A stretch of 64,000 nt of DNA from Rhodospirillales bacterium (GTDB lineage: Bacteria; Pseudomonadota; Alphaproteobacteria; Rhodospirillales; Defluviicoccaceae), in the NCBI GenBank assembly GCA_007695045.1, contig REEP01000052.1, positions 1-64,000 of the forward strand. Reading direction: 5' to 3'. The position numbers and the translations under genes were made by a program. Shown here in pieces: positions 51,759-64,000 of this stretch (the stretch's first letter is position 1; every line of letters starts with the position of its first letter). Under the pieces are notes generated by a model that saw only the letters and a list, made by a program, of their open reading frames with translations, was not told the origin of the DNA and made no database searches.

Positions 51759-53861
51759 ATGACACCGATGGACGCCATGCTGCAGGCCGCAGCCGCCGGC
51801 GCGCACGCCGAACCGTTTGCGCTCTCGGGCGGACTTGACGAGGACGACCTCGACGACGCGCGCCGCGCAACGCTCAGCGCCGTCCTCAACGCCATCGCCG
51901 ACAACACGGCACATATCGTGATCCGGACCTCGGCCGGTATCGGGACCAGCGGGTTTCTGCAACTCGTCGTGGCCGCCGCGACCTCACAAGCCCAAGCTCT
52001 GTCGGTCGCGAGGCCGGCCGTGTTCGACTGCCGTCCCAATACGTCGGCGGAGGCTTTTACCGCTTGGTACGCTCCGGTGCTCGCGGCAGACGGCCCCCGG
52101 CTCCTGGTTCTGGACGATGCCGCGCAGCTGGATGCAGGGCTGGCTCGCCGGTTGTGCCAAGCGGTTCGGGACGCATCCGGCGGGCCAAACTCGACCACGG
52201 TGGTGCGGGCCGTCAGACGCCGGGCAGCATCACGCCTCAACGCGGAGGTGGATGATGATGATGGCTTCCCGCCGGCAGCGCTCTCGGTGCAACTGGCACC
52301 GCTGACCACGGCCGACGTCGCCGACTTGGTGCGCCGGCGTCTTGCGGCATCCGGTTATCACGGGCCGGCGCCCTTCACCGAGGACGCGCTGGATCGCGTT
52401 GCGTACTTCGGGAAAGGCAATCCCGAACGGGTGTTGAGGTTGTGTCACCACACGTTCGCGCTGGCCTTGCGGGACGGCGATCTGCCCGTCACTGCCCCGG
52501 TCGTGAAAAGCGCGGCCTACGAACTGTTTTTGCCCAGCCATCTGCAGAAGCTGGCCCGCGGTCTCGCAGGGCAAGGACTGACGACGCCCAACGAAAACGA
52601 ATCGTGGGATCCGGCCCATGCCGACACTGATAAAATCGTCGGTGCCCCGGACCAGCCTGCCGAACCCGACTTGGCCACAACGGACCGCGGATCGCCGAGC
52701 GCGCCCGCCGGCCGCCCTCCGGAAGTGACGTCGTCCGCAGGATCGGTCACTGTGGGCACGCCACCTAGCGATCGGCCATCTCCCCCTTCGCTCGCGATAG
52801 GTGCTGAGGTGGCGGTGCCGCGCGGACCGTTGACGTCGGCTCCGGCCCGGGCCAATCGAACCCTTAACGCGGCGCCAGCCAAGCAGGGCGACATTTACGC
52901 CCGCCTGCCGACCACCCGGACCGGTCGGCGCTGGGTGGGGGCGGCGATGCTGAGTGCCCTTGTCGTGGCCGCCGTGGCTTGGTTTGCGGGGGACGATAAC
53001 GCCCCGCTGCACGGGCAAGCTGACGGTGCCGGTGATGTCGCCACGCCGGACGGTTCGGCAAGTGTCGGGCCGGTTGCGGGGACTTCGCCGGCGGTGTCCG
53101 GCGCGGCGCCAGGAGTGCCTGACGTTCCGTTGTCGGGCGATGAGACCGCCTCCGGCGCCTCCCCCGAACCGGCGGCCGAAGCTGTCCCTGCGCTATCGGC
53201 GGCCGAGCCTCCGGACTTGGCGGCGGATATCGAGGCGGCTGTCGAAGCCGACGACGCGATCCCTGCGCGCCTGCAGCGGGTATTGGCCGACCGGCCGCGC
53301 CCGCGGCCAAGTGCCGATGCAGACACCGCCTCGACCAGAGAGGACCGGGATGTCGAAGGCGCGCCCGGGGTCAGCCATGACTCCATGGATGACTTGATCG
53401 CGGAGCTGACCGACGGCGAGGACGCGACCGAAGCGCCGGCCGGGGCCTCTGACGCGGCCACACCGCCGGCCCCGCCGCCTCAGCCAACGTCGTCGCCCCT
53501 GGTCGCCGATGCTCAGACCTTGCTGGCCGAACTGGGCTACGGCCCGGGTCCGGTGGATGGCCTCATCGGTCCGAGGACACGGGCCGCCGTCCGCGCGTTC
53601 CAGCGGGACGAGGGGGCGGCGGTAGACGGGCGGATAACAGACTCGTTGGTCCAGAGGCTGCGCGCGCGTAAGGCGGCCGGCGAAGCCGTGGACGAAAGCC
53701 GGCGCGGGCGCGGCCTATGGTCGATGCTCGGCTTCGACCTGGACAGTATCCATGCACCGGACCGCTTTTATCGCTATTGCCGGGACAACCCGGATACCTG
53801 GGTCTACGACCATGGGAAGGGCCGCTTCGTCTATTGCGAGCGCTTCAACGCCCGCCGATAG
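51759..53861 (+). CDS. Degenerate P-loop ATPase-like protein with membrane anchor and peptidoglycan-binding domain
   Basis: A 700-residue composite protein. The N-terminal 270 residues resemble the AAA domain of ExeA/GspA-type proteins: a Walker B-like LLVLDDAAQLD and a C-terminal lid region with FTEDALDRVAYFGKGNPERV. The Walker A position reads TSAGIGTSG, so the catalytic Lys is replaced by Thr. A Pro/Ser/Ala-rich linker follows, then one transmembrane helix (about 400-415), a long acidic low-complexity periplasmic region, and a PG_binding_1 domain (LLAELGYGPGPVDGLIGPRTRAAVRAFQ, given in part). The last 55 residues are rich in aromatic and Arg residues. ATG 51759 is preferred over GTG 51738. 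It overlaps the convergent UDG-like gene by 17 bp. Confidence 0.72.
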   Translation: MTPMDAMLQAAAAGAHAEPFALSGGLDEDDLDDARRATLSAVLNAIADNTAHIVIRTSAGIGTSGFLQLVVAAATSQAQALSVARPAVFDCRPNTSAEAFTAWYAPVLAADGPRLLVLDDAAQLDAGLARRLCQAVRDASGGPNSTTVVRAVRRRAASRLNAEVDDDDGFPPAALSVQLAPLTTADVADLVRRRLAASGYHGPAPFTEDALDRVAYFGKGNPERVLRLCHHTFALALRDGDLPVTAPVVKSAAYELFLPSHLQKLARGLAGQGLTTPNENESWDPAHADTDKIVGAPDQPAEPDLATTDRGSPSAPAGRPPEVTSSAGSVTVGTPPSDRPSPPSLAIGAEVAVPRGPLTSAPARANRTLNAAPAKQGDIYARLPTTRTGRRWVGAAMLSALVVAAVAWFAGDDNAPLHGQADGAGDVATPDGSASVGPVAGTSPAVSGAAPGVPDVPLSGDETASGASPEPAAEAVPALSAAEPPDLAADIEAAVEADDAIPARLQRVLADRPRPRPSADADTASTREDRDVEGAPGVSHDSMDDLIAELTDGEDATEAPAGASDAATPPAPPPQPTSSPLVADAQTLLAELGYGPGPVDGLIGPRTRAAVRAFQRDEGAAVDGRITDSLVQRLRARKAAGEAVDESRRGRGLWSMLGFDLDSIHAPDRFYRYCRDNPDTWVYDHGKGRFVYCERFNARR

Positions 53862-59383: not shown

Positions 59384-59419
59384 GCCCAACGGCTCCTGAG
59401 CGCTCAGGAGCCGTTGGGC
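59384..59419. repeat. 36-bp perfect palindrome at the end of the DUF4340 gene
   Basis: The arm from 59384 to 59401 (begins GCCCAACGG, ends CTGAGC) is exactly repeated as its reverse complement from 59402 to 59419. It spans the last four codons and the TGA of the DUF4340 gene and lies 87 bp past the znuA stop. In RNA it would give a stem of about 16 bp with a GCGC loop, on either strand. It may end both convergent transcripts; no T-run follows on either side. Smaller hairpins (for example CCCGG and CCGGG near 59327-59340) lie between it and znuA. Confidence 0.75.
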
Positions 59420-60447
59420 GGCTGCTGCTCCAGAAGCGCCTCCAGGGATGGCGCCATCCGGTCGGCGACCGAGCGATGCATCCGGAACACCCATCCGTCG
59501 ACCCGGTCGGCGATGTTCCGAGCCTCGTCCACCACCGTGGCCGGAGCATCGGCCTGTGGCTCGGCCGAGAACGTGGCCCAGGGCAGGTCGTCCACGATGG
59601 CCAGACGATAACCAATCCGAAGGCCGTCGAAGGTCTCCACCGTCACGGCGGCGGCTTCATCCGGCAGGACGAAGTCCTCCGCCGCAGCGACATCCACCAG
59701 TTCGATCAGCGTCAGAACCGCGCCTAACTGGCGTACTGCCGCCGCTTCGGCCGTGCGCTCTTCCGGGACGGTCCGGAGCCGAAGGTCGGCATCGGCGGCG
59801 TTCCGATCGGCACGATAGCGCGCGCCGTCGGGCGAGGTCACGCTGACCTTTTTGACCCGGTCTGCCGACACGTGCACCACCTCCTGCCGCAGCCAAGCAC
59901 CGGCATTGGTGGGCACATCAACGGTGCCGCCGGCGAGCCAAGCATGGTCATCACCAGTCCGCCGGATGTAAGTGCCGGCTTCCCGCCCGCCGGTAACCCC
60001 GTATGCGCGCCGACCGATCAGGGCCTCGGCCAGCACGCGGCCGTCACCCGCGCTGACTGTGATTTTGCGCGACTGCGCTTCCGGGGCGTCCAGAACTTCC
60101 ACCTCCAGTCGGGGGAATCGGTCCGGTCGTGCGGTCTTGGCCTCCGCCAGGCGCATGTCGGCGAGCCCGGCGATGAGCGACCGCACCTTCGCTGGGTCGG
60201 CGGGGAAGCCGTCCTTGTCCGGCAGGATCCAAACATCCGTCCCGTCCCGGGCCAAAAAGACACTGCCGTCGGCATCGGCGATGGCGATCCTGACAGCCGC
60301 GCCGGGTTCCGCCCGAAGACGCGGGAACGCCGGAGCATCATCGCCACTCAAAGTGGTCACCCCGGGGCGCAGCCAGACCGCCATCGCCGCTGCCATAACG
60401 GCGATCAGGGTCACCACCGCGAGAACGCCGACCGATTTCGGTTTCAT
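59404..60447 (-). CDS. DUF4340 domain protein
   Basis: Membrane-anchored protein of the DUF4340 family, typically encoded with Gld-type ABC exporters; function unknown. From ATG 60447 the 347-residue product has one N-terminal transmembrane helix (about 5-25), then beta-rich segments with VWILPDKDGFPADPAKVRSL and RFPRLEVEVLDA, consistent with DUF4340 repeats. It starts 46 bp after the GldG-like gene on the same strand. Its last codons form one arm of the 36-bp palindrome. Confidence 0.85.
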   Translation of the reverse strand: MKPKSVGVLAVVTLIAVMAAAMAVWLRPGVTTLSGDDAPAFPRLRAEPGAAVRIAIADADGSVFLARDGTDVWILPDKDGFPADPAKVRSLIAGLADMRLAEAKTARPDRFPRLEVEVLDAPEAQSRKITVSAGDGRVLAEALIGRRAYGVTGGREAGTYIRRTGDDHAWLAGGTVDVPTNAGAWLRQEVVHVSADRVKKVSVTSPDGARYRADRNAADADLRLRTVPEERTAEAAAVRQLGAVLTLIELVDVAAAEDFVLPDEAAAVTVETFDGLRIGYRLAIVDDLPWATFSAEPQADAPATVVDEARNIADRVDGWVFRMHRSVADRMAPSLEALLEQQPPNGS

Positions 60448-60493
60448 CGGTTGCCGATTTCCATCGTTGGCAACGCGCCCGTGCGGTCGGCCT

Positions 60494-62401
60494 TCATGAC
60501 GCCGGTGCCGTGCGGCGGGCACGTGTGGCACGTCTGCGGCGCACCAATGCCACGACCAGAGCGGAAAGCGTGATCACGGCCGGCACCGCCCAGATGTTTA
60601 ACATCGTTACCCGGCGCTCCAGCCGTTCCACGTCATGCCGCAGGGCATATTGCACGTCGCGCAGTTCTTGGCGCAGTTGAAGCAGCCGTTGCCGACTATC
60701 CTCGATTGCCGCCTGCTGCTCCGCTGTTAGCACGGCACTGCCATCCGCCTCCCCGTGCTGCACCCCGGCGATGCGCTGACGGGTTTCCTCGATGTTGGCC
60801 AGCAGCGCCTGCTCGGATTCCCGATAGGCATCCTCGGCCCGGCGGCGGGTTTCTTCCAGCACGTCGAACCGGCGCTGGGTAACACCGCGTCCGCGCAAAC
60901 CCGCCAGCATCTCGCCGCCACGAAGCTGCTCCAGGGCATTGAGCGCGAAATCCGCATTGTTGGCGGTGGGGATCACAAAACGCTGCCCGCCCACGCCGCT
61001 CGCCTGGACATAGTTTTCGTCCACCAGGATATCGGAATCGGCAACCAGGATCACCTCGATGGGATGGTCGGCAGCGGCACGATGGAGATCCATCTGCGCT
61101 ACCCCCGCCGGGCCATCAGAAGCCCGGTGTTCGGGTGGGCCCTCGGGAAAGGCGGACGAAGCCGGCCCACTGATGCGGGCGGCCAGCACGAGCGGCATCC
61201 CGCCAGGCGCGAATTCCCGCAGCAGGGCCACCGGATCGGGAAGGAATCGGAGCCGTTCCGCCGCGATCTCGGCCGCCTGCGGCCCGGTCTGGATCAATGG
61301 CTGGAGCGTGGTCACGGCCGCGTCGACGCTGCGGATGGCGCCGGCGCTTTTCATGACCAGGAGCCTGAGATCGCCGGTCGCCGGCATCTCGGTAGCAAAA
61401 TTGTCCGGTGTCAGTTCCAGCCATGGCAGGTAATCGGTCACCACCGGCCTGTCCTCGTGCCGGGCCCGCACCCGCATGGCAGCATCCCGGTCGCCGACCA
61501 CGCGGCCCTCGGACACCTCGACGCCCCAGGCCGTCAGCAGTGGCGCCATGGCCGCGACGGCATCGCCGGCCGGCTGCCGACTCTGCATCCGCTCCAAAAC
61601 CTCGGGCAGCGGGTCCACGAAGGCCAGCACCCGGCCGCCGCCGAGCACGAACTGGTCGATGGCATAAAGGTCGGTTTCGTCGAGCGCCCCGGGCTGGACC
61701 AGCATCAGCACGTCCACATCTTCGGTGATGCCCTCCGACGCGGTCTCGATGTCCCGAACCGTGAAGGCCTGCTCCATCGCTTCGACGATCAGCCACGGTC
61801 CGCGTCCGGTCATGGGATCGCCGAACAGCGGCAGGTCGCCCAGCACCGCCACCACCGGTTTTTCCGGGTGCGCCAGATCGTGGATCATCCGGGTGAGGTC
61901 GTATTCCAGGAAATCCGCCCGATCCGGCGCCAGGAACGGGATGGTGCGCCGGTCGTCGGTGCTGTTGCTGCCGGCGATGGCAAGGTAGGCCAGGGTGCCA
62001 TCCGCACTCACGGTGAGGCCGCGGGCCCCGTCCGAGACGGCCAGATCCTCCTCCGGCGAGAACGGTCGCGGATCGTAGCGTTCCACGATCAGCATGCCTT
62101 CGGCCAGCCGGGCATACGTATCCAGCATCTCGTCCATCCGCCGGATGTGGGTGGCGAAGTACGGGCCGGCGTCGGCGAGTTCCTGGGAGCGGTAGAAGCG
62201 CAGCCGGATCGGCTCTTCGATACCGGCGAGCACCGACTTGGTGGCGTCGGTCACCGTGTACAGCCGATCCTCGGTCAGGTCGATGCGGACCCCCTTGAGG
62301 AGCGCATCGGCCAGGATATTGACGGCGAAGAACAGGACAATGACAAGAACGATAGCTGTCGCGGACAGAACGGTCTGTTGCGTATGCAGGCGCGTCCACA
62401 T
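60494..62401 (-). CDS. GldG-like ABC-type auxiliary protein
   Basis: Component of a Gld-type ABC export system, related to GldG of gliding Bacteroidetes but found widely in non-gliding bacteria. The 635-residue protein has an N-terminal membrane helix (about 14-35) and a C-terminal one (about 600-622) around a large extracytoplasmic domain with YDPRPFSPEEDLA, VLMLVQPGALDETDLYAIDQF and GGGRVLAFVDPLPE (DUF4350/Gldg ABC-type domain). A coiled coil precedes the last helix. The start ATG 62401 lies three bases after the permease stop. Confidence 0.88.
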   Translation of the reverse strand: MWTRLHTQQTVLSATAIVLVIVLFFAVNILADALLKGVRIDLTEDRLYTVTDATKSVLAGIEEPIRLRFYRSQELADAGPYFATHIRRMDEMLDTYARLAEGMLIVERYDPRPFSPEEDLAVSDGARGLTVSADGTLAYLAIAGSNSTDDRRTIPFLAPDRADFLEYDLTRMIHDLAHPEKPVVAVLGDLPLFGDPMTGRGPWLIVEAMEQAFTVRDIETASEGITEDVDVLMLVQPGALDETDLYAIDQFVLGGGRVLAFVDPLPEVLERMQSRQPAGDAVAAMAPLLTAWGVEVSEGRVVGDRDAAMRVRARHEDRPVVTDYLPWLELTPDNFATEMPATGDLRLLVMKSAGAIRSVDAAVTTLQPLIQTGPQAAEIAAERLRFLPDPVALLREFAPGGMPLVLAARISGPASSAFPEGPPEHRASDGPAGVAQMDLHRAAADHPIEVILVADSDILVDENYVQASGVGGQRFVIPTANNADFALNALEQLRGGEMLAGLRGRGVTQRRFDVLEETRRRAEDAYRESEQALLANIEETRQRIAGVQHGEADGSAVLTAEQQAAIEDSRQRLLQLRQELRDVQYALRHDVERLERRVTMLNIWAVPAVITLSALVVALVRRRRATRARRTAPAS

Positions 62402-62404
62402 GGC

Positions 62405-63139
62405 TCACGCCCCTTTGCCGCGCTCGATCACGATGGCGTTGATGACAAGGCCAGCCGCCACCAGCGAGGCGAAGAAAACGAGACTGCGCAGGTCGATCAC
62501 GCCTTGGGCAATCACGTTGAAGTGGGACAGGAAGCTGAAGCCGGCGATGGTTTCCGCCAGGATCGGCGGCAGCCAGCCACGGAACAGCGATTGCACCAAG
62601 TCGAGGCCGCTCATCATGAACACGAAGCTGAAGGTGGCACCGAGGATGAAGGCTACCACCTGATTGCGGGTCAATGCCGAAGCGACGGTAGAGAGTGCCA
62701 GGAAGCCGCCGGCCATCAGCCAGCTGCCGAGGTAAGCCGCCAAAATCACGCCATTATCGGGCCGGCCCATTACGTTGACGGTGATCCAAAGCGGGATGGT
62801 GAGGGCCAGGGTGATGCCGAGAAACACCCAGGCCGCGAGAAACTTGCCGACCACCACTTCGCCAGGCCTGATCGGCAGGGTCATCAGCAGTTCAATGGTG
62901 CCGGACTTGCGTTCTTCCGCCCAAAGTCGCATGCCCACCGCCGGCACCAGCAGCAGATAAAGCCAAGGGTGGAACTGGAAGAACGGACGCAAGTCGGCTT
63001 CACCGCGATCGAACAGACCGCCGACGTAGAAGGTCAGTCCACCGGCCAGGGCGACGAAAATCACCATGAACACATAGGCCACCGGGGAGGCAAAGTAGGC
63101 GGCAAGTTCCCGGCGAAAGATCACCCGAACGTGGTGCAT
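62405..63139 (-). CDS. ABC-2 type permease of the Gld-like exporter
   Basis: Six-helix permease (GldF-like) of 244 residues: family blocks RRELAAYFASPVAYVFMVIF at the N-terminus, RLWAEERKSGTIELLMTLPI in the first cytoplasmic loop and GFSFLSHFNVIAQGVIDLRSL towards the end. Its ATG shares one base with the ATPase stop (TGATG). Transport substrate unknown. Confidence 0.9.
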   Translation of the reverse strand: MHHVRVIFRRELAAYFASPVAYVFMVIFVALAGGLTFYVGGLFDRGEADLRPFFQFHPWLYLLLVPAVGMRLWAEERKSGTIELLMTLPIRPGEVVVGKFLAAWVFLGITLALTIPLWITVNVMGRPDNGVILAAYLGSWLMAGGFLALSTVASALTRNQVVAFILGATFSFVFMMSGLDLVQSLFRGWLPPILAETIAGFSFLSHFNVIAQGVIDLRSLVFFASLVAAGLVINAIVIERGKGA

Positions 63140-64000
63140 CAGGCCGCTCTCTCCGACGGCGGTTCGGCCGTGAGTGTGCGGAACACATCGTCCAGGCGGC
63201 CACGTTCCACACGGATCTCCCGGACCTGTATGCCGGCCTTGGTCAGGGCCGCCCGCACCGGCGCGGCGACGTCGGCCCCGCCCTCGGCGATGGCCAGGAG
63301 GCCCGCCGTGCCGTCGGGCCCATTGTCCTCCGCCGCCTCCACGGTGGCGACGCCGGCCACGGTTTGCAGCAGGGCTTTGGCCCCGGTAGCTGCGTCGGCA
63401 GCGACGCGGATCATCACGGCGTTGTGCAGCCTGGAGCGGCCCAGTAAAGCGGCCGGCGTGTCATCGGCCACGATCCGCCCTCCGGCGATGACAACCGCGC
63501 GGGAGCACACGGACTCCACCTCCTCCAGAATGTGGGTGGAGACGATGATCGCCTTGTCGCCGGCCATTTCCTTCAGCAGCATCCGGACGTCATGTTTCTG
63601 ATTGGGATCAAGGCCGTCGGTGGGTTCGTCCAGGATCAGCACCTGAGGGTTCATGAGGATCGCCTGGGCGAGGCCGACACGCCGCTTGAATCCCTTCGAC
63701 AGGGTGTCAATCGGCTGCAGCCAGACGGCCCGCAGGTGCAGGAGGTCGCTCACCATGCCGAGACGGCGGGCCTTGCCGGCGGGGTGCAGGCCGCGAACGT
63801 CGGCGCAGAACTCCAGGAATGATTTGGGAGTCATGTCGCCGTAAAGTGGTGCTCCTTCAGGCAGGTAGCCGATGCGCGCCTTGACGTCGATCGGGCTTTT
63901 GAGAACGTCGTAGCCGGCCACCACGGCGGTGCCGGCATCGGGCGGCAGGTAGCCGGTGATCATCCGCATGGTGGTGGTCTTGCCGGCGCCGTTGGGCCCG
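63139..64000 (-). CDS. ABC transporter ATP-binding protein of the Gld-like exporter (5' partial)
   Basis: GldA-like ATPase whose start lies beyond the right edge. The last visible bases encode Walker A as [10 protein letters not shown], followed by MRMITGYLPPDAG, then the signature TLSKGFKRRVGLAQAI and Walker B LILDEPTDGLDP. The C-terminal third carries the DUF4162-type regulatory extension ending in FRTLTAEPPSERAA. It is the first gene in the set ATPase-permease-GldG-DUF4340. Confidence 0.92.
   Translation of the reverse strand, partial: GPNGAGKTTTMRMITGYLPPDAGTAVVAGYDVLKSPIDVKARIGYLPEGAPLYGDMTPKSFLEFCADVRGLHPAGKARRLGMVSDLLHLRAVWLQPIDTLSKGFKRRVGLAQAILMNPQVLILDEPTDGLDPNQKHDVRMLLKEMAGDKAIIVSTHILEEVESVCSRAVVIAGGRIVADDTPAALLGRSRLHNAVMIRVAADAATGAKALLQTVAGVATVEAAEDNGPDGTAGLLAIAEGGADVAAPVRAALTKAGIQVREIRVERGRLDDVFRTLTAEPPSERAA

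Follow-up and report, generated by a model that had tools for sequence, protein, structure and literature searches.

The gene at positions 51759–53861 of the window (the whole stretch of 64,000 nucleotides of DNA that was analysed) encodes a protein of 700 amino acids that is reasonably likely to be a single-pass inner-membrane pseudo-ATPase, an ATP-independent scaffold tied to the cell wall and derived stepwise from an ExeA-type ATPase. The gene lies on the plus strand as an open frame from ATG to TAG (the coordinates include the stop codon), and a syntenic ortholog of 49–53% identity with the same layout, the same loss of the Walker A Lys and conserved neighbours is present in the one other species of the genus compared, hereafter the congener. 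The layout of the protein, its motif losses, its ancestry and the continuing selection on it were established at the level of sequence. In the proposed arrangement, the AAA+ fold would be retained and its conserved lid, together with the following helix, would offer a surface for docking or self-assembly; the nucleotide site would be dead and the cytoplasmic domain would work without ATP. A flexible linker would lead into one membrane helix and a second linker into a periplasmic PG_binding_1 domain that would hold the protein on the wall, and a small, probably disulphide-stapled C-terminal domain may touch a further envelope partner. The protein would thereby passively connect a cytoplasmic partner with the wall, and is probably a fixed cytoplasm-to-wall bridge rather than a motor.

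The degenerate AAA+ domain occupies residues 1–270 (51759–52568, plus strand); its placement in the cytoplasm and the overall topology of the protein are predicted. It comprises a complete AAA+ core and lid and can be aligned end to end with ExeA-type ATPases. The Pfam scan found no AAA match in the window protein itself, and the best named model for the domain, that of the XrtA/PEP-CTERM-associated ATPase (TIGR03015), matched over the lid with only 16.4 bits against a cut-off of 324.5. Scores for the same model were 16 bits for the window protein (P0001), 19 for P0002, 47 for P0003, 50 for P0004, 94 for P0005 and 112 for P0006, and Pfam assigns AAA_22 or AAA to the intact relatives. Because these relatives bridge the window protein to AAA_22 and TIGR03015, the ExeA-type identity was accepted despite the missing Pfam match and an unrelated N-terminal family was rejected. 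AlphaFold2, supplied with an alignment of 28 sequences, predicted the full AAA+ core and lid with a mean pLDDT of 89.6 and a pTM of 0.85, a model that is not fully independent evidence since the input consisted mostly of intact ATPases. The closest solved folds were those of Cdc6/Orc1 (Z 15.7, rmsd 4.3 over 243 residues), clamp loaders and TnsC, and the top Foldseek match by E-value with the AAA model as query was RuvB. By alignment, tree and fold, the N-terminal domain, which an earlier note on this DNA had described as AAA-like, is an AAA+ domain of the ExeA/XrtA-ATPase kind.

The residues that characterize the ATP site of ExeA-type ATPases, namely the Walker A GxxxxGK[ST], the Walker B Glu and the sensor-2 Arg, are absent from the window protein. 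The ruined Walker A (residues 57–64, TSAGIGTS; 51927–51950, plus strand) lies in the motif TSAGIGTSG, and alignment with 27 ExeA-type AAA domains places Thr57 at the position of the first Gly, Thr63 at that of the Lys and Ser64 at that of the Thr, in agreement with the earlier proposal that the P-loop Lys is replaced by Thr. The Walker B-like strand LLVLDD (residues 115–120; 52101–52118, plus strand) is kept, as had also been noted, though Asp120 stands at the position of the catalytic Glu (Asn in the congener); in addition, the position of the sensor-2 Arg is taken by Glu223, a replacement that goes beyond the earlier description. No second GxxxxGK[ST] was found elsewhere in the 700-residue protein, and a hidden P-loop was rejected on the basis of this whole-protein motif search. 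In the congener ortholog the P-loop reads APSGVGTTG, likewise without the first Gly and without the Lys. Since this syntenic ortholog shows GVGTTG and carries the same losses, a sequencing or assembly error was rejected. The loss of catalytic residues and the domain layout have good support in the sequences, and we infer that the N-terminal domain does not bind ATP.

The loss of the Lys does not extend throughout the relatives and is confined to the genus, represented here by the window's species and the congener. The nearest relatives in two sister genera, two genes each in genomes G004 and G006, keep GxxxxGK[ST] (GPEVGKT, SSGIGKT, ERGVGKT and EHGVGKT), a finding that the earlier note had named as counting against its reading and that here applies outside the genus. 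In the tree, the window protein and its congener ortholog form a pair (support 100/99) that is nested with the two G004 genes, which retain an intact Walker A (99/95), within an enclosing branch restricted to the family (96/91); because the nearest sister-genus relatives are intact, the Lys loss is placed on the stem of the window's genus. The motif table comprised 28 AAA domains, 17 of the canonical ExeA type and 11 from the window's family. All 17 canonical domains, including L007 and L008 from the window's genome and the GspA-like L105, have the first Gly, the Lys, the Walker B Asp-Glu and the lid Arg after GxP, and 15 of the 17 have QR; in a phylum-wide sample, GxxxxGKT, DEAQ and QR were present in 29/29 ExeA-type domains. 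The roles of QR and of the lid Arg as finger and sensor 2, respectively, are carried over from AAA+ proteins in general. On the family branch, the Walker B Glu is replaced by Asp or Asn in every sequence (11/11), the lid (sensor-2) Arg is lost in 10/11, and QR is absent from all 11 alignment rows, its column sitting in a gappy stretch. The Walker A Lys or Arg is kept in 9/11, the exceptions being the window protein and the congener; it is kept in all 26 other aligned sequences and lost in both species of the genus. The alignments point to a likely order of descent in which an ExeA-type ATPase lost its hydrolysis residues on the family-restricted branch and then nucleotide binding in the window's genus.

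Several other relatives were encountered. Two ExeA-type AAA proteins from the same bacterial family (L104:3036-5150 and L110:371-1981) have Arg at the position of the Walker A Lys, and their C-terminal regions resemble Sel1-type repeats, with a weak Pfam match in L110 only. An intact relative in G004 (L047:150-2858) has an acidic periplasmic linker of about 400 residues rich in Ala, Glu and Thr. The intact AAA-ankyrin-PG_binding_1 gene of G006 (L048:626-6904) is situated two genes downstream, on the same strand, of a homolog of pentameric ligand-gated ion channels (Neur_chan_LBD and Neur_chan_memb). Direct searches with the whole protein found no match in the named genomes or among plasmids, and viral contigs gave matches to the peptidoglycan-binding part.

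Comparison with the congener indicates where the protein is constrained. Across its 270 residues the AAA domain shows 62% identity with zero gaps, the PG_binding_1 domain is 82% and the tail 69% identical, and within the AAA domain the lid region reaches 67–70% and the less conserved P-loop stretch 52%. The Pro/Ala-rich cytoplasmic linker (residues 271–385; 52569–52913, plus strand) is 29% identical with 26 gap columns, and the low-complexity periplasmic linker (residues 416–575; 53004–53483, plus strand) is 33% identical, again with many gaps. Values of dN/dS, usable in relative terms only because dS is about 1.3 and near saturation, were 0.23 for the AAA domain, 0.15 for the lid, 0.11 for PG_binding_1, 0.49 and 0.42 for the linkers and 0.32 for the P-loop stretch (residues 51–130). 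A pseudogene or drift was rejected in view of this constraint (gap-free 62% identity, dN/dS 0.23). It is for the same reason highly improbable that the AAA domain is a drifting relic without function in a protein of which only the wall-binding part matters: the graded loss of catalytic residues would suit such a relic, as would the proteins of a sister genus that have the periplasmic modules and no AAA part, but 270 residues have stayed free of gaps at about half the dN/dS of the linkers.

The distribution of constraint within the domain also bears on what the pocket could still do. Nucleotide binding without the Walker A Lys is known for a few P-loop proteins, and the window protein might be a nucleotide sensor, its pocket taking up ATP or a different nucleotide and changing conformation with no hydrolysis; both species of the genus retain Gly62, the Ser/Thr after the Lys position and Asp119, and the loop sits in a fold predicted at high confidence. 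We consider such a sensor improbable: both species have lost the first Gly, the Lys and the sensor-2 Arg, the congener has Asn for the second Walker B acid, and conservation across the P-loop stretch is among the lower values in the domain. Conservation within the AAA domain peaks in the lid helices and the next, FLPxxLxxLAR helix (residues 177–270; 52287–52568, plus strand), in which Glu223 lies. Conservation of the lid above that of the P-loop fits a fold retained for its surface and not for its pocket. A conserved lid is also compatible with a dead subunit of a mixed AAA+ ring, in which either of the genome's two intact ExeA-type ATPases would supply the ATP turnover and the window protein would bring the ring to the wall. 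ORC and the clamp loaders, both of them among the nearest structural matches to the AAA model, are known examples of mixed rings that include inactive subunits. This composition is nevertheless unlikely: the QR motif and the sensor-2 Arg, which would act at the neighbour's or the subunit's own ATP, are also gone, and the intact ATPases are distant (15–17% identity), their relatives occur throughout the order, and their genes do not adjoin this one. Both are without a periplasmic domain and lie in polysaccharide-type gene surroundings. The ATP-independent scaffold remains the reading that we prefer.

A single membrane helix at residues ~393–411 (VGAAMLSALVVAAVAWFAG; 52935–52991, plus strand; Kyte–Doolittle maximum 2.06) joins the AAA domain to the peptidoglycan-binding domain, as had been read from the sequence before, and an equivalent helix is present in all relatives tested. 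The PG_binding_1 domain (PF01471; residues 579–634; 53493–53660, plus strand) was identified by Pfam with an E value of 1.8e-14 and 54 bits (54.1) against a cut-off of 23. Peptidoglycan-binding domains were among the confident matches in a structure search that used the periplasmic model as a whole, and the SltB3 structure matches the PG_binding_1 model over 54 columns with an rmsd of 0.7. The domain presumably binds the wall.

The protein ends in a conserved mini-domain (residues 651–696; 53709–53846, plus strand) that the earlier note had not described. Two Cys and one Trp (Cys674, Trp681 and Cys693 in the window protein) are invariant in this 46-residue tail across ten relatives. It is restricted to the window's family: a profile of the tail matched 10 of the family's 11 genomes but none of the 286 others in the order, and gave no further match among 385 genomes of the class. 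The mini-domain is predicted to consist of a helix and a hairpin bearing both cysteines (pLDDT ~88), and a Cys674–Cys693 disulphide is likely. It comes after PG_binding_1 in most cases, including proteins that lack the AAA domain; these AAA-less carriers of both modules start with a membrane helix (L053, L113 and L114) or carry Sel1 and ankyrin repeats (L051). Proteins combining the peptidoglycan-binding and cysteine modules with a membrane helix and no AAA domain are encoded in several genomes of one sister genus, and since such proteins exist, the periplasmic half can occur without the ATPase. DUF2845 (PF11006) matched the mini-domain with 14.8 bits, below the gathering cut-off of 21, and matched weakly in five of ten relatives (best E 5.6e-4), which is a lead only; a search for DUF2845 members for profile comparison found none, in the control genomes likewise, and so carries no weight either way. 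An AAA lid remnant, suspected by eye in the G008 protein L056, was rejected because the lid profile did not list that protein. In G010, a PG_binding_1 part and a cysteine domain occur in two overlapping frames (L120:6550-7541), either a frame-shifted gene or a sequence error.

The surroundings of the gene yielded no conserved partner gene. The neighbours, encoding a DUF192 protein, a uracil-DNA glycosylase and an ABC permease, are kept in the congener and lie on the opposite strand; being so oriented and having no evident role link, they were rejected as operon partners. By the closest named matches of one neighbouring gene, the genome is that of an alphaproteobacterium near organisms of the Rhodospirillales type. 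Further along the window, Gld-type ABC transporter genes and a gene for a DUF4340 protein are found on the minus strand (59404–63969). In four genomes of a sister genus, an AAA-free PG_binding_1-cysteine protein adjoins a DUF4340-like gene, with DUF4340 confirmed by Pfam in two. The DUF4340 gene is 5.5 kb from the studied gene in the window and on another contig in the congener, where the two are unlinked, and a connection to the DUF4340 and Gld-type ABC genes was left as a lead.

These observations permit a broader, more tentative proposal, which we regard as possible but not probable: an ExeA-type branch specific to the family may have been retired in order, hydrolysis first and binding next, with the AAA domain absent in some sister-genus proteins, while the wall anchor stayed in place together with a new cysteine-pair domain, giving an envelope scaffold system unique to the family. 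Nucleotide-binding, binding-dead and AAA-free versions would then coexist in related genera. Pseudo-enzymes are usually recognized late, and the related genera here preserve intermediate stages, so that a single lineage offers a test of whether the ExeA-type AAA+ fold can act as a plain structural clamp. The proposal also bears on the role of ATP in GspA, as an ATP-independent wall-bound relative would separate anchoring from the energy-dependent task.

Each domain of the window protein is explained by existing families; the open-licence papers searched yielded no description of a protein that unites a dead ExeA-type domain, a wall anchor and a family-restricted cysteine domain and whose intermediates survive in sister genera. 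DamX lies in the inner membrane, binds the wall through a periplasmic SPOR domain and has, in some bacteria, an AAA-like N-terminus. The window protein has PG_binding_1 where DamX has SPOR, for which the Pfam scan gave no match in the window protein, and is set apart from DamX by description. TIGR03015 is an ATPase model of 269 positions without a membrane helix or a wall-binding domain, unlike the window protein. A close parallel in layout is GspA, in which an AAA+ ATPase, a membrane helix, a cysteine-peptidase-like domain and a peptidoglycan-binding domain are combined and which is paired with GspB (PMC9239104). GspA/ExeA binds peptidoglycan and is required for secretin assembly, and the ATPase domain of ExeA is needed for complex formation and for this assembly (PMC4098917). 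GspA/ExeA and the window protein share a cytoplasmic AAA+ domain of one and the same kind, a single membrane helix and a periplasmic PG_binding_1 domain. GspA, however, has an active ATPase and a cysteine-peptidase-like domain, whereas the window protein has a dead site and, instead, a linker and the cysteine-pair domain; no Pfam match to a cysteine-peptidase-like domain was found in residues 411–579, which are of low complexity and poorly conserved. GspB (PF16537) gave no match in the window's genome (~98% complete), and the sole secretin found there sits in a Tad cluster, with no type II secretin. A true GspA was rejected on these grounds, and of the earlier idea of an ExeA/GspA-like structural descendant the ExeA-type ancestry stands and direct descent from GspA, given also the family-only branch, does not. 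With a Tad secretin as the only one found, and GspA/ExeA as precedent, the protein could be a GspA-like assembly factor for the Tad pilus secretin that works without ATP; this is quite unlikely, as the gene lies away from the Tad cluster, ExeA depends on its ATPase domain in the secretin task, GspB is absent and relatives occur in G006, in which no secretin was found (assembly 88% complete). Elsewhere in the family, two genomes (G005 and G008) have GspB and a second, long secretin, in G008 with a GspA-like protein on the same contig, and the GspA-like L105 of a related genome has an intact ATP site. Also close to the window protein are P0004 and P0005 from sister genera of the same bacterial family, which share the order of AAA domain, transmembrane helix, PG_binding_1 and cysteine domain but have an intact GxxxxGK[ST], P0005 differing further in the ankyrin repeats between its helix and its peptidoglycan-binding domain.
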